Shown in pieces: positions 24,585 through 55,153 of a DNA stretch of 64,000 nucleotides; positions within the stretch are counted from its first letter, which is position 1; the number at the start of each line of letters is the position of its first letter. The DNA lies in assembly GCF_023277745.1 (NCBI RefSeq), contig NZ_CP086322.1, forward strand, positions 8,556,001-8,620,000, given 5' to 3'. The notes below the pieces were generated by a model. That model had not been told where the DNA came from, made no database searches, and was given only the letters and a program-made list of their open reading frames with translations. This DNA comes from Streptomyces halobius. Lineage in GTDB: Bacteria > Actinomycetota > Actinomycetes > Streptomycetales > Streptomycetaceae. The position numbers and the translations under genes are program-made.

Positions 24585-26408
24585 ATGCAGAGAGCCGAAG
24601 CCCTGATGGAGATCATCCACGAACGCGGCAAGAGAGGATTTCCACTGGAGAGACTGTACCGGCACCTGTTCAACCCGGAGTTGTATTTGCGGGCCTACGG
24701 CAAGATCTACCGCAACGATGGCTCTATGACACCCGGTTCTAACCAAGAGACCGTGGATGGTATGAGTCTGAAGAAAATTCAGACGATCATCGATGCTTTG
24801 CGACATGAGCGGTATCGGTGGACCCCGGTTCGGCGCGTATACATCGAGAAGAAAGGAACACCAGGGAAGCGCCGGCCTCTGGGTCTGCCTTCGTGGTCGG
24901 ACAAGCTGCTGCAAGAAGTGATCCGCTCTCTGCTGGAGGCGTATTACGAGCCGCAGTTCTCCGATCGGTCCCATGGTTTCAGGCCAGGGAAGGGCTGTCA
25001 CACAGCACTCGCGGAAGTTTCCGAGTCGTGGGGCGGGGTAACGTGGTTCGTCGAGGGAGACATCTCCCAGTGTTTCGACCGGCTGGATCATGGGGTACTG
25101 CGCTCCATCTTAGCCGAAGACATTCACGACAACCGTTTTCTACGGTTGATCGACGGGCTATTCCAGGCTGGATACTTGGAGGAATGGCGCTATCACGAAA
25201 CACTGAGTGGTGCGCCACAAGGGGGTGTTCTGAGCCCACTGCTCTCCAACATCTACCTGGACCGCTTGGACAAGTACGTCGAGACAACGCTCTTGCCTGT
25301 CTTCAACCGGGGCGCCCGACGCAAGCCGTATCTGCCGTACATGCGGATACACAAGGCAGCTTGGAAACTGGAGAAGCGCGGACGGCGGGAGGAAGCACGG
25401 CAGTTGCGCCATCAGCTGCAACGACTTCCCTCGCGTGACCCAAACGATTCAGGTTTCCGGCGGCTGCACTACGTCCGCTATGCGGACGATTGGCTGCTCG
25501 GATTCTCCGGGACGAGGCAGGAAGCCGAGAACATCAAGGGACTGATCGGGAGATTCCTGCGGAATCATTTGAAGCTGGAACTCTCTGATCGGAAGACCTT
25601 GATCACCCATGGGCGGACACGAGCCGCTCGTTTCCTCGGCTACGAGATCGTGGTCCACCACAACGACGCCAAACGCAACCGACACGGCCATAGGTCCATC
25701 AACGGACAGATCGGCTTGAAGGTGCCAATGGATGTCGTGCGCGCCAAGCGCAAGCCCTACATGCGACGCGGCAAACCGGCCGCCAAACTGGAACGTGTCC
25801 ACGACTCGAACTTTCAGATCGTGGCGCGGTACCAGGCGGAGTTCCGGGGAATCGCAGAGTATTACCAGCTGGCCTACAACCGGCACCGCCTCGGCTCGCT
25901 GAGGTACGTCATGGAACGGTCTCTGGGCAAGACGCTGGGGCACAAGAACAAGCTCAGCGTCAATAAGATCTGGAACCGTTTCCGGGCGACTTGGCAAACT
26001 CCTGGAGGTCCTCGCAGAGGGCTACAGGTCACAGTCGAACGTGCCGGAAAGAGACCGCTGGTCGCCCGTTGGGGCGGGGTACCTCTGGCGCGCAGGACCA
26101 CGAGGGTAATCCTCAGAGACGAACTCCCGGCTGTATGGAGACAGCGACCAGCGGAGCTCATCGACCGGCTCATGTCCAGTCGCTGCGAGCTCTGCCGAGC
26201 GCATACAGACGTCGAAGTGCATCACATTCGACGTTTGGAAGATCTCCCTACCCGGGATCAGGCTGAACAGCCTGAGTGGGCACAGCGGATGGCATCACGT
26301 CGCCGCAAGACCCTCGTAGTCTGCCGCGACTGCCACGGTGAAATCCACAATGGACGCACCGACCGGCAGGGCTCGCGGAATTGGGCACTGGAGAGCCGGG
26401 TGCGGTGA
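24585..26408 (+). CDS. Group II intron reverse transcriptase/maturase with HNH endonuclease (inner intron 2)
   Basis: A 607-residue intron protein of a different class from its neighbours. RT motifs include DGSMTPGSN (RT0-1), RPLGLPSWSDKL (RT2), EGDISQCFDRLDH (RT3), GAPQGGVLSPLLSN (RT4) and VRYADDW (RT5). A maturase domain follows, then a C-terminal HNH endonuclease with CELC, VEVHHIRRL and CRDCHGEIH (His and metal-binding Cys pairs). The protein should support retrohoming with second-strand cleavage. The stop codon lies inside the first strand of domain V, which is usual for this class. All catalytic motifs look intact. Confidence 0.93.
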   Translation: MQRAEALMEIIHERGKRGFPLERLYRHLFNPELYLRAYGKIYRNDGSMTPGSNQETVDGMSLKKIQTIIDALRHERYRWTPVRRVYIEKKGTPGKRRPLGLPSWSDKLLQEVIRSLLEAYYEPQFSDRSHGFRPGKGCHTALAEVSESWGGVTWFVEGDISQCFDRLDHGVLRSILAEDIHDNRFLRLIDGLFQAGYLEEWRYHETLSGAPQGGVLSPLLSNIYLDRLDKYVETTLLPVFNRGARRKPYLPYMRIHKAAWKLEKRGRREEARQLRHQLQRLPSRDPNDSGFRRLHYVRYADDWLLGFSGTRQEAENIKGLIGRFLRNHLKLELSDRKTLITHGRTRAARFLGYEIVVHHNDAKRNRHGHRSINGQIGLKVPMDVVRAKRKPYMRRGKPAAKLERVHDSNFQIVARYQAEFRGIAEYYQLAYNRHRLGSLRYVMERSLGKTLGHKNKLSVNKIWNRFRATWQTPGGPRRGLQVTVERAGKRPLVARWGGVPLARRTTRVILRDELPAVWRQRPAELIDRLMSSRCELCRAHTDVEVHHIRRLEDLPTRDQAEQPEWAQRMASRRRKTLVVCRDCHGEIHNGRTDRQGSRNWALESRVR

Positions 26409-26427
26409 TAAGTCGCATGCCCGGTTC
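26393..26427 (+). ncRNA. Domain V of inner intron 2
   Basis: A hairpin with arms GAGCCGGG and CCCGGTTC, containing the AGC triad and overlapping the end of the RT2 gene. Confidence 0.8.
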
Positions 26428-26528
26428 GGGAAGGGGCCGTCGGAAAAGGACCCCGCTGGGGCACCTCGCCGGCGGCCTACTTCACGGCGACAGCGTGATA
26501 GCAGCAGAGCTGCTGTCGGGGAGGAACG

Positions 26529-28055
26529 TTGTTGAACAACGACGCACCGCCGATATCTTGGCCGGGCAGTATGGCGGCCGAGCGGCGGGTACTCGATCAT
26601 CAGCTCAAGCTGCACCGATGGGCAAGGAATGAGCCGCATCGACGGTTCAAGGATGTATTCAACTTGGTCTGTGACCGGGCCACATTGCTGGTGGCCTGGG
26701 AACGGGTGTCCGGCAACCGGGGTGCCAGGACAGCAGGCGTGGACGGGTTAACCCGTTATCACGTCGAGGAACGTCACGGAGTGATTCCGTTTCTGGAGGA
26801 GCTGCGCTCCTCCCTCAAAGACGGGTCCTTCACGGCGCTTCCGGTCAAGCAGGCGGTGATCCCGAAGAAGAACGGCAAGGTCCGTTACCTGGGTATCCCG
26901 ACTCTGCGTGACCGGGTGGCGCAGATGGCCCTCAAGCTGGTTCTGGAGCCGATCTTCGAGGTCGATTTCTACCCGTCCAGTTACGGGTATCGGCCTGGCC
27001 GGCGGGCTCAGGATGCCATCGCCGAAATCCACCACTGCACCAGCAAGCCGTCAAACTACGAGTGGGTCATCGAGGGCGACATCAAGGCTTGCTTCGACAA
27101 TGTCGATCACCATGTTCTGATGAACTTGGTGGCCGAGCGCATCAAGGACCGCAAGGTTCTGCGGCTGGTCAGCGTGTTTCTGCGGGCTGGGGTTGTCGAA
27201 TTGCAGGGCGGGTTCGCGGAGTCCCTTACGGGTACTCCGCAAGGAGGAGTTGTTTCCCCGCTGCTGGCTAACATCTATCTCACTGTCCTGGACCGGCATT
27301 TCTCGCGGATCTGGGAGACCGAGATGACCCCGGCGTGGCGTCGGCAGCATCGACGTCGCAAGGGTCTGCCGAACTTCCGGCTGGTGCGTTATGCGGACGA
27401 CTTCGTGGTGCTTGTTCATGGCACGAGGGATGACGCTGAGGCGCTGAAGGCGGAGATCGGTGAACTGCTGGCCAGCAGAATGAAGATGACCCTCTCGGAC
27501 GAGAAGACCCGCATCACCCACATCGACGACGGGTTCGTCTTCTTGGGCTTCCACATCCAGCGCAGGTTCTGGGGCGGCGGCCGTCGTGTTGTGCTCACCA
27601 TTCCGGCCAAGCAAGCCTTGGCATCGGCGATGCACAAGATCAAGAAACTGACAGGGCGAGGCACAACCTCGCTCTCGTTGAAGGAGGTGCTGCGGACGGT
27701 CAACCCGGTCCTTCGGGGCTGGGCGGCTTACTTCCGCTACGGCGTTTCGAAGAGAACGTTCTCGTATCTCGGCTGGTACGCGTGGCGGAGGATGAATCTC
27801 TGGATTCGTCGCAAGCACCCTCGTATGACCTGGAAACAGATGCGCCGCCGTTACTTTGCAGCGGACAGCATCGCAGAGGGTGGGGTCACCCTCTACAACC
27901 CGGCGAAGATGAAGGTCGAGCGTTACCGCTTCCGCGGAGCGAAGATCAGCACGCCATACAACATCGATGAGGTCGATCCGGGCGGGGCGCGTTTCCGCCG
28001 GATCAACCACGACGATGTGGCCTTCGTCGGCCAGGTCAGTGAATACCTCGCCTGA
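26529..28055 (+). CDS. Group II intron reverse transcriptase/maturase (outer intron)
   Basis: A 508-residue intron protein, clearly related to RT1. It begins at a TTG (26529 or the next codon) after GGGGAGG. RT motifs are KVRYLGIPTLRDRV, EGDIKACFDNVDH, GTPQGGVVSPLLAN and VRYADDF; the maturase domain has VLRGWAAYFRYGVSK. No HNH domain. The initial residues are less conserved than in RT1. The intact catalytic motifs suggest that the outer intron could splice once the inner introns have been removed. The gene lies in domain IV of the outer intron, 19 bases ahead of its domain V. Confidence 0.92.
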   Translation: MLNNDAPPISWPGSMAAERRVLDHQLKLHRWARNEPHRRFKDVFNLVCDRATLLVAWERVSGNRGARTAGVDGLTRYHVEERHGVIPFLEELRSSLKDGSFTALPVKQAVIPKKNGKVRYLGIPTLRDRVAQMALKLVLEPIFEVDFYPSSYGYRPGRRAQDAIAEIHHCTSKPSNYEWVIEGDIKACFDNVDHHVLMNLVAERIKDRKVLRLVSVFLRAGVVELQGGFAESLTGTPQGGVVSPLLANIYLTVLDRHFSRIWETEMTPAWRRQHRRRKGLPNFRLVRYADDFVVLVHGTRDDAEALKAEIGELLASRMKMTLSDEKTRITHIDDGFVFLGFHIQRRFWGGGRRVVLTIPAKQALASAMHKIKKLTGRGTTSLSLKEVLRTVNPVLRGWAAYFRYGVSKRTFSYLGWYAWRRMNLWIRRKHPRMTWKQMRRRYFAADSIAEGGVTLYNPAKMKVERYRFRGAKISTPYNIDEVDPGGARFRRINHDDVAFVGQVSEYLA

Positions 28056-39991: not shown

Positions 39992-41068
39992 GTGCGTTTG
40001 ATCAGTAATTTCAGGATGGCTGCCGTGGGAGCGGCGGGGATAGTCCTGCTCGTGGGGTGCGCAGGTGCACGTGGCTCGGTGGAGTCGGAGGGGGAACCGG
40101 CTTCCGGGACAGAGCTGCCCGTGAAGACCGGCGCCCGGGATGTTGTCCACACCGCCCTCGATGAGAAGGAATACGGGATCCGGCTCGCGGTCAAGAGCCT
40201 GGCCCGTGGCTCGGAGGACGACCTCGACGGTGTGCGCGTCAACGACAGCCTGAAGGGCAAGATCCCCTACTACCTCACCTACGAGGTCACCAACACCGGC
40301 AAGAAGAAGATCCCCCACGCCTACGAGGTCTTCCGAAACCTCGCCCTGACCGGCACCGACTGGGCGCCCGGAACGCAGGTCACGACCTCCGGCGGATTCG
40401 GCACCGCGAACGCCTCCGTGCCCTGCGAGGACTCCGCACCGGACACGCTGGCGCCCGGCGACTCGTACACCTCCTGCGGGACGTACATGATGCCGAAGGG
40501 CGTCGGCGTGATGGCCGTGACGCACACCACCGGGGGCGGGTTCATCAGCCCGGCTGACCAGGTCACCTCCTGGCCAGTCGACGGCGGCCTGGCCACGGCC
40601 TCCAAGGAGATGGCGGACCCGGGCGACACGATCGCCGTCCGCTGGGACGCCGGCAAGGAGCACGGCGGCGTCCTCGAACTGCCCGCCACCCTGAAGTCCG
40701 TGCGCAAGGGCAGCCCGGCCGACCTCACCGGTCTCAAACTCGACGACGACCAGCGCCACCGCACCCCGTACTACGTGACGATCTCCTACCGCAATCCCGG
40801 CAAGACCGACCTCTACCCTGGCCAGGCGAGCAGCATCCGCGTGCTCACCGAGGGCGGCCAGCAGATCGGAGGCGCGCCGACCCTGGCCCTGGGTGGGCCG
40901 GAGATCGCCGCCTGCCCGTCCAGAGGGCCCCTCGACATGGTCCCGCCTGGTGGCAAGGTGACGCAGTGCACCGTCCACCTGATGGCGGACGGCGACAAAC
41001 CGGTCGCGGTCGGCTTCGCGGACGCGGACGAGGGGGACCTCTCCGCCTGGCGAGCGCATGTCTCCTGA
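39992..41068 (+). CDS. Lipoprotein with two repeated beta domains
   Basis: A 358-residue surface lipoprotein. The GTG start has AGGGGGG eight bases upstream. The lipobox is LLVGC with the lipidated Cys at residue 23. The mature part holds two similar beta-sandwich segments, each with a YYLTYEVTNTGK / YYVTISYRNPGK core and a late Cys pair (near residues 149-165 and 310-328), resembling DUF4352-type extracellular domains. Function unknown. Its stop lies 11 bases inside the start of the following phosphotransferase-derived gene, an original overlap typical of an operon. Confidence 0.7.
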   Translation: MRLISNFRMAAVGAAGIVLLVGCAGARGSVESEGEPASGTELPVKTGARDVVHTALDEKEYGIRLAVKSLARGSEDDLDGVRVNDSLKGKIPYYLTYEVTNTGKKKIPHAYEVFRNLALTGTDWAPGTQVTTSGGFGTANASVPCEDSAPDTLAPGDSYTSCGTYMMPKGVGVMAVTHTTGGGFISPADQVTSWPVDGGLATASKEMADPGDTIAVRWDAGKEHGGVLELPATLKSVRKGSPADLTGLKLDDDQRHRTPYYVTISYRNPGKTDLYPGQASSIRVLTEGGQQIGGAPTLALGGPEIAACPSRGPLDMVPPGGKVTQCTVHLMADGDKPVAVGFADADEGDLSAWRAHVS

Positions 41069-42784
41069 CCCACCGGGCCGGGCCCGGCCCGGTGCCGGAG
41101 AAAGCAATCAGGCTGCCTTCGACGCGGACAGTGCCGAGGCCCTGCTCCGCCGGGCCTGCCGGGTCGCCGACCTCGATCCGGATGGGGTCGAGCTGCTGCG
41201 CCTCGGCGACCACGCCGTGTACAGGGTCGACGGCGGCAAGGTGGTCGCCCGTGTCAGTCGGAGCCCCGACCGGCTCCCCTCCGTACGCACCGAGGTCGCC
41301 GTCGCGCTCTGGCTGGCCGCCGAGGACTACTCATCGGCTCGGCTCGTCACCGAGGCCGAACAGCCCGTCGTCGTCGACGGCCACCCGGTGACCTTCTGGG
41401 AAGGGCTCGCCGACGGGGACACGTACGCCAGCATGCGCGAGATGGGCGAAGTGCTCCACCAGTTGCACGAGTTGCAGCCGCCGGCCTTTGCGCTGCCCGA
41501 ACTGCACCCCTTCGCCAAGGTCGACGACCGCTTGCAGCGGGCCGTGGTCCGCCAGGAGACCAGGGCCTATCTCTCTCAGCTCGCCCAGGACCTGGCCGTG
41601 CAGTACCGCGAGCTGCGGTTCACCCTGCAGCCTGGCCCCATCCACGGGGACTTCAACATCGGCAACGTGCTGCGCGACAGCTCTGGGCATCCCAAGGTCA
41701 TCGACCTGGACGGGTTCGTCACGGGCCCGCGCGAGTGGGACCTGATGCACACCGCGATGTACTACGACAGCTTCGGCTGGCACACCGAGGCTGAGTACGC
41801 CGACTTCGTCGCCGGGTACGGCTCCGACGTCCGTGAATGGTCCGGGTACCCCGTGCTGCGAGCCGTCCGCGAGCTGCTCGCGGACCTGTCGGCGGCGTTC
41901 GACCGCATCGAACACGACCACCTCATGGCCATGCTCGGCAAGTTCCCCGCCAGGGATCTCATCCGAGGCTGGCTGAAGGCGGGCGTGATCGACCGCGGCT
42001 GGTTCGCACCGACCGAGGAGGGAACTCCTCAAGAGGGGGCCGGGGCCCCGCAGTACTGCGGGGCACTGGGCAAACGGGCGAACTGCCAGGTCGCGGTCAG
42101 CGTCCACGCCGCAACCGATACTGCCTCCTGCCCGCTGCAATGGCGCCTGTTCCTGCCCCGTCAATGGGCGTCGGACACCGACCGCTGGACCCCCGCACCC
42201 TCAGTGGCAGCTCTTGCCGCCGACCTGGGACAAGAAGCCTTCACCACTCTCACCTGGCGGCAAGGCTCACGAGGGGCGTTACGCTCCCGCTTCGCCGCCG
42301 TGCGCGTCCGGCCCGCCGGCAAGGCAGTCGAGCGTCCGATCCGGGCCACTGCCTCAGCAGAACAGGGCTGGTGGGACGGGATCCTGCCCGACTGCTGGTT
42401 GCTGGCCGAATGGCCCGCGGACAGCGAAGCACCGACCGACTACCGGCTGTCCAACCTGCCAGCAGACACACCGATCGCCGACCTCGTCCGTCTCGCCAAG
42501 GTCCGCTGGCGCATCGAGCACGACTACCGCGAACTCAAACGCGGCCTGGGCCTGGACCACTTCGAAGGACGTTCCTGGCCCGGCTGGCACCACCACGTCA
42601 CCCTCGTGACCGCCGCCCACGCCTTCCTCACCGAACAGCGCCTGGCCCCAAAAGTCCCCACGCCGGCCTCACCCTCTACCACGTCCTCGACACTCTCCAG
42701 GACGTCCTGAGGTGCTGGACCGGCATCTGCACCACCTGCCACCAACCCCTGCCCAGCAGGCCCCCAAGATCGAGACAGACCTAA
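41058..42784 (+). pseudogene. Chimera: aminoglycoside phosphotransferase + RT fragment + transposase fragment
   Basis: One continuous frame (41058-42710) joins three unrelated pieces. Residues 1 to about 274 are an APH/choline-kinase-type phosphotransferase with PIHGDFNIGNVL (catalytic loop) and VIDLDG (metal-binding Asp), lacking its C-terminal helices. Residues about 275-325 are a group II intron RT fragment (AAFDRIEHDHL, LIRGWLKAG and TEEGTPQ). From about 42045 it reads as the C-terminal half of an IS701-like transposase (QYCGALGKRANCQVAVS, then IEHDYRELKRGLGLDHFEG). The transposase end continues in another frame to 42784 (LDTLQDVLRCWTG). The kinase part keeps its catalytic residues but probably cannot fold properly. 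Confidence 0.8.
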
Positions 42785-43973: not shown

Positions 43974-45305
43974 ATGGCCACCGAACAGTTCGAGGCGCTC
44001 GGATTTGATCCCGCTCCGGGCATTCCCGAGTCCGTGCAGCAACTCGCGTCCAAGCTCAGCCGGGCAGGCCAGCAGTTGGGAGAGACCCACTCCGCGCTCT
44101 CCAGGCTCGGAAAGAGCGGCGGAGTCTGGGAAGGGGAAGCAGCCACACAATTCGCTGGAACCGTCGGCAAGCTTCCCTCTCAACTAGGGACGGCACGGGA
44201 CTCTCTCCTCCAGGCTGCCGGTGTGATGCAGCGCTGGGAGACCCGGCTCGGGGAGTACCAGTCTCTGGCCCACTCTCTCGAAACGCAGGCCAAGACCGCC
44301 CAGCAGAACCTGAAGAGTGCACAGTCACACCCGGATCTGGGTCTTGCCGGCCAAACCTTCGACACCGAGGAAGCCCTCGCCTCGGCACAGCAAAGACTGG
44401 ATTTGGCGCAGAACCGTGTGAACAGCGCCCACGAGGAGCTAAATAGCCTCCGTCGCCGGGCACAGGATCTCCTGGGGAACCACAACGACACAGCGATCGC
44501 CACTGCGCAGGCACTCAACACTGCTGCCGAATCCGCCCCGGACAAACCCGGGCGCTTCGAGATGCTTCTGAACGCCATCAAGGACCTGGGCTCGAAGCTT
44601 GGGGACCTGGCGAGCGACGTCTGGGGATGGATCAAGGAACATGCAGATGTCATCTACGACATCGGCACCTTGATGGGCTATGCCAGCGCCGCGTGTGACC
44701 TGCTCGCGGTTGTCTTCTCGGAGACGGTTGTCGGCGCCGTCATCTTCGAGGTCGGTGCGCGGGCCTTCGGAATCGGAGCGCTGGGGTTCCACGCCCTTGG
44801 CGGGTTGGCCGGCTCGAAGAACTTCGCGTGGAGCGATCTCGCCCTCGACGGATTCGCGCTGGTGCCCTTCGGAGGACTGGCCAAGGGCGGAGTGGGAATC
44901 GCCGAGGGGGGTGCGGACCTTGTACGAGCCATCGACGGTGCCGGTCGGATCGGGCAGATCGCGAACAACATCTATGGGCTTGGCAACGCCACTAAGGAGA
45001 AGATCATCGACGTCGTCTCGGATTTGTGGACAGTCGATGATGACAAAAAGAAGACCGTTGCACCGGGCACGCCGGAGCCGGTGCAGTCGATGTCCCTCGC
45101 CAGCGCTGCTGGGATGGATGCTCCGGGTTCGGAGCAGCTGCTGCCGCGGACCGAAAGCGTTCCAGTCAAGGAGCTCACGGGGCAGGACAACGCAGTGATC
45201 AGCCGGACCACATGGGACATCCGGGAACCCTCACAGCGGCCCGCCCGCCCTGATGCCATGGTTCCCGCATCTGGCTCCCCGTCTGCCGCCCCTGCCTTCG
45301 GCTGA
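43974..45305 (+). CDS. Putative T7SS-secreted protein with WXG-type N-terminal domain
   Basis: A 443-residue protein. The ATG has GGGGGAG about ten bases upstream. The N-terminal 190 residues are a helical T7SS-signal domain with a WxG-like turn (GGVWEGEAATQFAG) and long coiled-coil helices. The middle (residues 225-320) has hydrophobic, glycine-rich segments such as ALGFHALGGLAG, probably membrane-interacting. The C-terminal 120 residues are variable and Pro/Ser-rich with no recognised toxin fold. It may be a channel-like effector or a scaffold; the true effector tip cannot be assigned. Confidence 0.7.
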   Translation: MATEQFEALGFDPAPGIPESVQQLASKLSRAGQQLGETHSALSRLGKSGGVWEGEAATQFAGTVGKLPSQLGTARDSLLQAAGVMQRWETRLGEYQSLAHSLETQAKTAQQNLKSAQSHPDLGLAGQTFDTEEALASAQQRLDLAQNRVNSAHEELNSLRRRAQDLLGNHNDTAIATAQALNTAAESAPDKPGRFEMLLNAIKDLGSKLGDLASDVWGWIKEHADVIYDIGTLMGYASAACDLLAVVFSETVVGAVIFEVGARAFGIGALGFHALGGLAGSKNFAWSDLALDGFALVPFGGLAKGGVGIAEGGADLVRAIDGAGRIGQIANNIYGLGNATKEKIIDVVSDLWTVDDDKKKTVAPGTPEPVQSMSLASAAGMDAPGSEQLLPRTESVPVKELTGQDNAVISRTTWDIREPSQRPARPDAMVPASGSPSAAPAFG

Positions 45306-52246: not shown

Positions 52247-53113
52247 TCAAACCGGGGCAGCCACGACCGTGACGGTCAGGGCGGCGCTCGGCCGGGCCAC
52301 CCGGAAGGTGAAGGTCTCCTCCAGATAGAGGCTGACGTCAGTGTTGCTGGTGGTGGGGAGGTAGCCGATCGACAGGTCCTGGCCGACAATGAGCAGGAAG
52401 TCCCCGCCGCGCTCGCTGAGCACGACCGCCTGCGTGTCTTTGCCCGTCTTCTCGTCGAGGCAGGGCATCAGGACGATCTTTCCGCCGAGGATTTCTGTGA
52501 GGCGTTCGGACAGCACATAACAGCAGCTGCCGGCATCCGCGATGATGCGTTGGTAGCCCGTCGTGCCGATGGCCAGCGTGTACGGGCCGACGACACCACT
52601 GGTCCGCAGCTTGTCCACCACCTTGGCGATGTCGGCGGGGTAGGTGTCGGTTGCCACCGGCAGCGTCACGCCCGAGGGTGATGCCTGATTAACGATTCCG
52701 GCGATGAACGCTCTGTCCCATCCGTTGAACACCGCGTAGTTCTCAAAGTCGGCAGCCAGTTTCGCGGCCTTGTCCAGCTGGGTGAGGTCGGGGTTGATGC
52801 TGCCGCGCTCGATTTCTTCGATGGCTTTGAGGGGGAGGGTGAACGGGATGCGGACCTGGGTCAGCGGCTGTACGACCCGCAGCGCCTTGACGTTGGTGCC
52901 AGAGGGGGTCAGCTTGTCGGGGTAGGTGTTGAGTTCGGTGGCTTTTCCGGTGGGTACGGCGTCTTGCTCCCAGCCGCCGGGGCCGGCGAAGCTCACGACC
53001 TGTCGTGCGGCGAGCAAGGGGATGAGCCGGTTGCGGGCCTCGTCCTCGATCACCTGCCAGACGCGGGGGGTGATGGGTGCCAGGCCGCGCAGCAGGTGGT
53101 TGATGGTGTCCAT
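52247..53113 (-). CDS. Family 1 encapsulin shell protein
   Basis: A 288-residue HK97-fold protein that self-assembles into a protein nanocompartment. The N-terminus NHLLRGLAPITPRVWQVIEDEA is the characteristic family 1 N-terminal arm, and the early strand VVSFAGPGGWE and the late LEETFTFRV also match. The cargo-docking pocket of family 1 shells lies between the N-terminal helix and P-domain. It starts at an ATG five bases after the stop of the glycine-rich cargo gene, and its AAGGAG lies within that gene's last codons. Slightly longer than the usual 265-270 residues. Cargo would be the product of the upstream gene. Confidence 0.9.
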   Translation of the reverse strand: MDTINHLLRGLAPITPRVWQVIEDEARNRLIPLLAARQVVSFAGPGGWEQDAVPTGKATELNTYPDKLTPSGTNVKALRVVQPLTQVRIPFTLPLKAIEEIERGSINPDLTQLDKAAKLAADFENYAVFNGWDRAFIAGIVNQASPSGVTLPVATDTYPADIAKVVDKLRTSGVVGPYTLAIGTTGYQRIIADAGSCCYVLSERLTEILGGKIVLMPCLDEKTGKDTQAVVLSERGGDFLLIVGQDLSIGYLPTTSNTDVSLYLEETFTFRVARPSAALTVTVVAAPV

Positions 53114-53118
53114 GGTGT

Positions 53119-53961
53119 TTATCGCTCCTTCAGGTTTCCGATGGCCAGTGACCCGTCGCCACCGGTAGATGTGGCCGCACCGTCCTCACGGGCTGAGGTG
53201 CCGCCTGCGGAGCCGGTGGCCGAGCCGGAACCCCCCGCAGCGCCGCGGCCTCCGCTGCCGCCGTCACCGCCGGGACCGGCCGCGCCTCCGCTGCCGCCGT
53301 CACCGCCGGGGCCGGCCGCTCCGCCGCGCCCGCCGGTACCGAAGTTGAGGGATCTGGCCCGGGCATTCCCGCCGTCGTTGCCGCCTTCCGCGCCGCCGGC
53401 CCCGCCGGTCGCGGTGGCCGCCGCGCCGGCTCCGGCGTAGCCACCTGCTCCCGCGTAGCCGCCCGTACCGCCGTAACCGCCGGCCCCGGCGTAGCCGCCC
53501 GTACCGCCGATGCCGCCGATACCCAGCGACCCGTCGCCGGCACCGCCTCCGCTTCCGCCGGTGCCGCCACCTCCGGCAGTGCCTCCGGAGCCGCCGGTTC
53601 CTCCGGACCCGGCGTCGCCGCCGCTGCTACCGGGCCCGCCGTCACCGCCGGTACCGAAGTTGACGGCCTCGGCATCGGCGCTACCGCCGCGGCCACCGCC
53701 TTCCGCACCGCCGACACCGCCGGTCGCGGTGGCCGCCGAGCCGGCTCCGCCGTAGCCGCCGACAGCGCCGTACCCACCGGCTCCCGCATAGCCGCCTGCC
53801 CCGCCATAGCCACCAGCACCGCCATAACCACCGGTGCCGGCAGCGGCGGTGGCCCGGGCACGGCCGTCGGAGCTGAGTTCCATCGCGAGCGTTACCTCTG
53901 CGGCCTGGTCCGGACGATGGGGCAGGGAAGGTCCAGCCGAACGGGGGGAAGTGTCATCCAT
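53119..53961 (-). CDS. Glycine-rich encapsulin cargo candidate with C-terminal targeting peptide
   Basis: A 280-residue, low-complexity protein rich in Gly, Ala, Ser, Asp and Tyr. After a roughly 40-residue leader it has two similar modules: AATATGG at 76-82 and 181-187, NFGTGG at 101-106 and 206-211, then DGSLGIGGIGG at 143-153 and, at the C-terminus, DGSLAIGNLKER at 269-280. The terminal motif matches the family 1 encapsulin targeting peptide consensus (D-G-S-L-x-I-G-x-L-K). GYGGAG repeats occur in both modules. No PE or signal peptide is seen. It is the first gene of the encapsulin operon. It does not resemble known cargos (DyP, ferritin-like, hemerythrin), and its physical role is unknown. 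Confidence 0.75.
   Translation of the reverse strand: MDDTSPRSAGPSLPHRPDQAAEVTLAMELSSDGRARATAAAGTGGYGGAGGYGGAGGYAGAGGYGAVGGYGGAGSAATATGGVGGAEGGGRGGSADAEAVNFGTGGDGGPGSSGGDAGSGGTGGSGGTAGGGGTGGSGGGAGDGSLGIGGIGGTGGYAGAGGYGGTGGYAGAGGYAGAGAAATATGGAGGAEGGNDGGNARARSLNFGTGGRGGAAGPGGDGGSGGAAGPGGDGGSGGRGAAGGSGSATGSAGGTSAREDGAATSTGGDGSLAIGNLKER
53125..53130 (-). promoter_or_regulatory. Encapsulin ribosome binding site inside the cargo gene
   Basis: The sequence AAGGAG that serves the encapsulin start also encodes Lys-Glu of the cargo's targeting peptide (LKER). Shell and cargo are thus translationally linked. Confidence 0.75.
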
Positions 53962-54069
53962 CAGATCTCTCTAACGTTGCGGGCGGCTCGGGTGGCCCGT
54001 GGGGCCTATGGGTCGTGTTGTCAGGGCTTCCCCGCGGTGGCCGTCCGGCTCTGCGGGACATCGAGGAGG

Positions 54070-54219
54070 GTGGGCAAGATCGCCCGGGTATTCGATGACC
54101 ACCCCGATGGCCTCGGGATCAACCGGATCGCTGAGGCAGCCGGGCTGACGGTGCCGCAGGTCGAGCGAGCACTGGCATGGCAGAGCGAGCGGTTCGCCGC
54201 GTGGTGCCGGCGGCACTGA
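54070..54219 (+). pseudogene. Small helix-turn-helix fragment
   Basis: A 49-codon frame reads VGKIARVFDDHPDGLGINRI then AAGLTVPQVERALAWQ and ends at TGA. It looks like the last part of a DNA-binding protein. No upstream continuation is seen. Possibly a relic of a plasmid or IS gene. Confidence 0.35.
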
Positions 54220-54251
54220 GCCCGAACGGGGGTGAACCTGACGTCGGTCAC

Positions 54252-55153
54252 TGAGCTGGCTTCGCCTGGCGTTCGGCCTCGGTGGCCTGGTATCGGTAGG
54301 ACTCGGTGCGGTCTGGATCAGCGTGCAGCGGAAAGTGATCCGGTCGCCGATTGCCGCGCAGAGCCTCGGGTCGGCGAAGATCTTGTCCCATTCGGCGAAC
54401 GGGGAGAACCGCCCGCCCTCGTGCTCGACCCCGCCCTTCTCATGTGCCCCTTCCTCACCAGGCCCGCAGTAAAGGGGCGAGAACGCATACCAGGACCTGA
54501 AGGCCACCCAGCGCGTCGTCTCCGTGCGGGAACGGCCGAACAGCACATGTTTCACCGCGGGCTTGAGGTTGTCGTAGCGGATATGGACCGAAGGCACCCC
54601 GCCCAGCGCCCGAAAGGCTTCCACATGTCCTTCGAAGAACGCCTCCTGCGAGGCGGTGGTATAGACGCGGTGGATGGCCTTGCCCGAGTACGACATCCGC
54701 AGCGTGAACAGCACGCACTTGCGGCGCTGCCCGGCCAGGTCCAGCCACACGTCCGCGAAGTCGACCTCGGCTTCCTCGCCGGGCCGCTTCTCCTGCGGCA
54801 CTGTCCCCTCCAGATGCCGACGCCCCTCCTTGGCCTCCAAGACGATCTGCGGGCGCCGCTTGCGCACGTAGTCACGGATCGTGGAGTAGGACGCGTGCTC
54901 GAAATCGTGCTCGCCTGCCAGACGCTCCAGGATCCGGTCGACGGTGTGCTTCTGCTTCTTCCAGGCGGCTCCAGCACGCTCTTGCGCGGCGGCGGCTTCT
55001 TCCGCCAGAGGGCACCGGACACACCAGCGCCTTCGCCACGGTGTTCCGCGACACCACCTTGTACCGCTGCGCCAGCACCCGCCCCGTGACCGCCGGACCT
55101 AACCGGCGGTCACGACGGATCCGCTCAAAGATCCACTCACGCGACCTGTACAC
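54252..55153 (-). pseudogene. IS21-family element remnant, istA fused to istB
   Basis: The N-terminus of IstA (REWIFERIRRDRRLGPAV and RYKVVSRNTVAKAL) starts at 55153, then passes through frameshifts to the catalytic core (EVDFADVWLDL, HIRYDNLKPAV and HEKGGVEHEG, with Asp, Asp, Glu). Immediately after this the reading continues as FAEWDKIFADPRLC and DRITFRCTLIQT, which is the end of IstB, followed by a final frameshift. A deletion has removed the end of istA and most of istB. No terminal repeats are obvious. Confidence 0.8.

Follow-up and report, generated by a model that had tools for sequence, protein, structure and literature searches.

A glycine-rich repeat protein is the predicted cargo of a family 1 encapsulin in Streptomyces halobius

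Introduction

What does an encapsulin shell hold when the gene standing in its cargo place encodes a glycine-rich repeat protein? The question is posed by a 64,000-nucleotide stretch of the Streptomyces halobius genome, the whole of which is called the window here. In the sections of PMC10960027 and PMC8346489 that treat cargo, the classes described for family 1 encapsulins are enzymes or metal- or redox-handling proteins, and the usual place of the cargo gene is directly before the shell gene (PMC8346489). The survey of 2,383 family 1 systems reported there sorted operons by cargo into six or more types, and 90 systems fitted none of them (PMC8346489).

Results

The shell gene and its glycine-rich neighbour

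Two profiles assign the shell ORF to family 1: Pfam PF04454 (1.5e-61) and encap_f1 (NF041155), an NCBIfam equivalog whose cut-off of 100 bits the ORF exceeds with 218. It is the one encapsulin of the 9.24 Mb genome, the gene is intact and its coding signature is ordinary (GC3 0.86). The glycine-rich gene lies upstream, with five bases (53114-53118) between the two. The coordinates and both family matches thus bear out the preliminary description of this DNA, in which a family 1 encapsulin gene followed, after a five-base gap, a 280-residue glycine-rich ORF ending in a targeting peptide.

Table 1 Features of the encapsulin locus (positions in the window).
Feature	Position	Strand	Evidence
Family 1 encapsulin shell, 288 aa, placed by sequence in the hemerythrin-cargo clade	52247..53113	-	PF04454, NF041155, PDB relatives (e.g. 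8u50), tree
280-aa glycine-rich GGX-repeat protein, predicted cargo	53119..53961	-	ORF, 115 G of 280, codon-position differences 17/20/36, GGX period
C-terminal targeting peptide DGSLAIGNLKER, residues 269-280	53122..53157	-	22.7 bits on tag matrix, pattern match
AAGGAG, Shine-Dalgarno-like site of the shell gene, also codons of K278-E279	53125..53130	-	Junction sequence, 11 nt ahead of the ATG of the shell gene
Repeat unit 2 (residues 147-231)	53269..53523	-	Shares 57 of 85 residues with unit 1
Worn tag-like motif between the units, DGSLGIGGIGG, residues 143-153	53503..53535	-	16.8 bits, DNA resembles terminal tag
Repeat unit 1 (residues 42-126)	53584..53838	-	Shares 57 of 85 residues with unit 2
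IS21 remnant, IstA middle piece joined in frame to IstB end	53971..54867	-	NCBIfam match, 9 nt upstream of the cargo gene

Glycine makes up 41% of the upstream protein, accompanied by 51 alanines, nine tyrosines, one histidine and no cysteine. The protein had no match to Pfam or NCBIfam at E 0.01 and falls into none of the described cargo classes. Its size of 23.4 kDa, pI of 4.5, charged residues (12 K+R, 20 D+E), single histidine and lack of cysteine are more in keeping with a soft repeat polymer than with a mineral binder, and a mineral-binding role, one of those suggested at first, was set aside on this composition.

The predicted cargo is built by internal tandem duplication, and a tag-like motif lies between its two units; neither feature was in the preliminary description. 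Each unit runs from tyrosine-bearing GGX-type repeats through a conserved ATATGG-GGAEGG-NFGTGG stretch into a glycine-serine stretch. The three-residue phase of glycine is sharpest in residues 41-80 (0.71/0.77/0.00) and less regular in other blocks, and exact GGX runs of at least three triplets cover 69 of the 280 residues. An AlphaFold2 model built from the single sequence, with no alignment, had a pLDDT of 41 and supported no fold.

Openness of the cargo frame by itself proves little, because a GC content of 77% makes long frames easy and a second frame, of 243 aa, is also open on the same strand. The cargo frame is closed by a stop codon four codons before its ATG, and stops are present in one of the two alternative frames across the repeat halves. 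Better evidence for a real gene comes from the DNA differences between those halves (Table 1), in which third codon positions are in excess, as in coding DNA.

A search of 5.8 billion predicted proteins returned the shell of the same contig without any self match of the cargo. Hence the cargo gene may be missing from public annotation, and the lack of homologues in those protein searches is weak evidence. With the whole protein as query, three matches were obtained (DnaJ domain, PF00226; E 0.55 and 4.7), and with residues 178-280 none, each search having scored only the 8,000 or so candidates with the most words in common with the query; given these numbers and the absence of the query itself, both negatives count for little. 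The S. halobius genome holds no cargo paralogue, the next best of its 112 candidates, all scored, having an E of 0.03. Among 199 genomes of relatives (12 candidates scored per genome) the one match outside the species' own genome had an E of 9e-5, and its frame contains a stop. The predicted cargo is so far a single example.

The targeting peptide

Sixty of the 63 loci L002-L064 had a tagged ORF upstream of the shell gene, and these gave a tag matrix of 31 distinct cores. Natural tags scored 19.6-35.7 bits on this matrix when left out one at a time and 24.2-36.0 when inside it; in the leave-one-out comparison the tail of the glycine-rich protein scored above two of the 31 and below 29 (Table 1). 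We then asked how often such scores arise elsewhere. The stop-to-stop frames of the window and of L002-L064 contain 794,078 10-mers, of which 65 reached at least 13.8 bits: the 60 matrix tags, two DyP tags not used in the matrix (L033 and L054), the cargo tail, the internal motif at 16.8 bits and one unrelated 10-mer of the window at 16.9 bits. Judged by its sequence, the C-terminal tail is a targeting peptide with the DGSLxIGxLK pattern.

A strict degenerate DNA pattern of DGSx-type tags had one match in the 9.24 Mb genome, at the cargo tail, and a reversed-pattern control also had one. A looser pattern, run over the whole genome, found three further places, which lie 38, 206 and 292 residues before the ends of their frames, so that none is a C-terminal tag. 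For the Klebsiella tag, alanine in place of L, I, L or K abolished loading (PMC10960027). All four of these key residues are kept in the cargo tail, as L272, I274, L277 and K278.

The internal motif sits between the repeat units and resembles a worn copy of the terminal tag. Its function is doubtful because its score lies below that of every natural tag and about equals that of the unrelated 10-mer; the resemblance could be due to chance. The AAGGAG of the terminal tag is likely the ribosome-binding site of the shell gene, as read from the junction sequence, and overlaps the Lys-Glu codons of the targeting peptide.

Elsewhere in the shell survey a hemerythrin-type cargo (L096:921-1484) had the C-terminus DPSLRIGQSG, a tag that departs from the pattern after IG.

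Docking residues of the shell

Loss of R34 or D229 of the Klebsiella shell nearly abolished loading, and D38 pairs with the tag lysine and was called mostly dispensable (PMC10960027). We aligned the window shell with that protein and checked the residues: R37 and D246 occupy the R34 and D229 sites, and the shell has L247 for I230, E234 for T217 and S41 for D38. At position 41 the other sequences of the alignment have aspartate in 12 of 13 cases and glutamate in one. Replacement of the docking aspartate by S41 counts against the predicted loading.

The window shell also has Cys-Cys at residues 197-198, where 13 of 13 aligned relatives have Gly-Gly, and leucine at residue 215, where 13 of 13 have tryptophan. 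We take the 197-198 stretch to lie near the five-fold pore.

Relatives of the shell and their cargos

The closest shells in the protein collection (P0005, P0006 and P0012) are 54-55% identical to the window shell, and the closest in named genome contigs, that of Pseudonocardia lacus (L002), is 45% identical. In the genus set a family 1 shell is present in 93 of 392 genomes, the species' own included, and the other near-full-length shells of the genus reach at most about 40% identity (fragments aside). Overlapping sets from the class (394 genomes), phylum (396), order (391) and relatives (199) yielded nothing above 48% at near-full length, and 26 stretches of IMG/VR viral contigs held no closer shell. 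The 61 shell records from plasmids are all below 60% identity; among the matches listed (40), the neighbouring feature, where named, is DyP.

We collected 100 shell loci, 63 from the nearest-contig and genus searches and 37 from the class, phylum and order searches. Of these, 98 were classified by phmmer against three reference cargos; L033 and L035 were left aside, their matched shell pieces being shorter than 200 residues. The classes were 61 DyP, 31 EncFtn and four hemerythrin, with two shells unassigned. One of the two, L054, has its DyP on the opposite strand. The other, L101, is a family 1 shell at 44% that has no tag-bearing ORF upstream in the fetched stretch. Pfam assigned 59 DyP, one EncFtn and one hemerythrin to the neighbours at 61 of the 63 loci (L019 and L035 left out).

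The preliminary description had called for a search for encapsulins beside tagged glycine-rich proteins. The 98 comparable shells gave none, nor any tagged upstream ORF outside the three classes.

In a tree of 121 shells the window shell grouped with P0005, P0006 and P0012 (support 100/100). The larger clade of 27 (support 100/99) comprises the window shell, all four hemerythrin operons and 22 database shells whose neighbours were unseen; it adjoins an EncFtn clade. By its sequence the window shell is thus placed in the hemerythrin-cargo clade, on a long branch which the tree tool flagged together with its unusual composition.

Genomic surroundings

The piece nearest to the operon is an IS21 remnant, which gave 113 bits with the NCBIfam IS21 transposase model (below the cut-off of 160) and a short IstB tail match of 23 bits. 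A scan for sigma-70 promoters and terminators found neither, which counts against the predicted cargo. The genome encodes two hemerythrins and both end without a tag, so that a tag-bearing hemerythrin is absent from it.

Other features of the window lie farther off. Two adjoining ORFs at 24585-28055 encode reverse transcriptases that have group II intron maturase domains. At 41058-42710 an aminoglycoside-phosphotransferase-like domain shares one frame with DDE transposase pieces, and the 443-aa product of 43974-45305 carries a putative type VII secretion signal domain (PF21725).

Discussion

On our preferred reading of this operon, the hemerythrin has given way to a repeat protein that is not an enzyme, and this protein is loaded into the shell as a non-catalytic matrix that fills the lumen. 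On the sequence evidence we think this probable. The original proposal that the glycine-rich protein is targeted to the shell as cargo is well supported at the sequence level by its terminal tag, the operon order, the retention of R37 and D246 in the shell and the failure of the pattern searches to find a competing tag in the genome.

The operon would have descended from a hemerythrin encapsulin acquired horizontally from another actinobacterium, in which a glycine-rich gene with a tag took the place of the hemerythrin. The tag would dock in the luminal groove through L272, I274, L277 and K278, which would meet R37, D246, L247 and possibly E234 of the shell. If each subunit of a T=1 shell docked one chain, the cargo would take up about 40% of a lumen assumed to be 20 nm wide. 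The GGX chains may form a flexible brush bearing tyrosine and arginine, or short polyglycine-II bundles, and such a soft filling could retain small molecules or a partner protein, or keep them out.

A bolder form of the proposal, which we advance tentatively and would not expect to hold in full, is that this is the first encapsulin with a dedicated non-enzyme cargo, a glycine-tyrosine repeat chain that bears two tags and is packed as a dense matrix, giving a gel- or condensate-filled particle. If true, a virus-derived shell would have been turned into such a particle. Were the cargo indeed a repeat protein that lacks an enzyme domain, it would mean that nature uses these shells beyond reactions, and would offer a natural model of a low-complexity polymer enclosed in a protein capsule.

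Decay is the strongest competing explanation. The enzyme domain, probably a hemerythrin, would have been lost, leaving a duplicated glycine-rich linker and a tag that may still be loaded and has no function. Cargo linkers are typically glycine- and proline-rich (PMC10960027), the gene was built by internal duplication, the shell has diverged and no relative of the cargo was found in the protein collection, the own genome or the 199 relatives. The adjoining IS21 remnant and the other mobile elements of the window make decay possible, and a single example in a region so rich in such elements makes a decayed cargo of expanded linker a serious competitor. However, the ORF is intact and has kept its four key tag residues, the shell gene is likewise intact with an ordinary coding signature, and third codon positions account for more of the differences between the two halves than the other positions do. 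We therefore regard a derelict cargo as unlikely, while giving it real weight.

A second rival accepts loading, as does the lumen-filling matrix that we prefer, but assigns the loaded cargo another physical state: the GGX repeats would fold as a polyglycine-II sandwich to give a rigid structural or binding domain instead of a soft matrix. The GGX phase of glycine argues for such a fold, as does the modelling of GGX-triplet PGRS domains as polyglycine-II sandwiches (PMC10216338). The single-sequence AlphaFold2 model gave no such fold, exact GGX runs take up just a quarter or so of the protein (69 of 280 residues) and, given the lack of a Pfam match, there is no PE domain; this makes a folded, PGRS-like cargo improbable.

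Very improbable is a third reading, that the likeness to a tag arose by chance or from the ribosome-binding site of the shell gene and that the protein either has nothing to do with the shell or is never produced: the Shine-Dalgarno-like AAGGAG in the tag codons, the absence of the protein from database results that include the same-contig shell (annotators may not have called the gene) and the open 243-aa frame speak for it, but a ribosome-binding site accounts for K-E and not for D-G-S-L-x-I-G-x-L, the 10-mer survey makes chance remote and the position directly before the shell gene is the usual cargo place (PMC8346489).

Comparison of the lumen-filling repeat protein with known systems begins outside the encapsulins, with the mycobacterial PE_PGRS proteins, whose GGX repeats it resembles in part (PMC10216338). 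The PE_PGRS proteins have a PE domain, whereas the window protein has none (no Pfam match), and its GGX period of three is clear in some blocks, with exact runs in 69 of 280 residues. To our knowledge, neither an encapsulin tag nor an encapsulin partner is a feature of PE_PGRS proteins.

Within family 1, the DyP-type systems at the other fetched loci of the genus have the same shell family, operon order and type of tag, but their cargo is a DyP-type peroxidase (59 of the 61 neighbours scanned). The EncFtn operons belong to a neighbouring shell clade and, as at the window, have a tag-bearing cargo upstream; they differ in that this cargo is a short ferritin-like protein (31 of 98 shells). The actinobacterial hemerythrin encapsulins, exemplified by Pseudonocardia lacus (L002), share the shell clade and the place of the cargo gene directly upstream; the P. 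lacus cargo ends in DGSLGIGSLRGR. There the cargo is a hemerythrin (PF01814), whereas at the window it is a glycine-repeat protein without a Pfam or NCBIfam match. The open-access literature, searched at the level of titles and abstract openings, yielded no glycine-rich encapsulin cargo, and together with the absence of a counterpart at the 98 shells this sustains the original view that the cargo type had not been described before; such a cargo could be among the 90 systems that the published survey left unfitted. The predicted glycine-rich repeat cargo would be a new variation in family 1 encapsulins, seen once.
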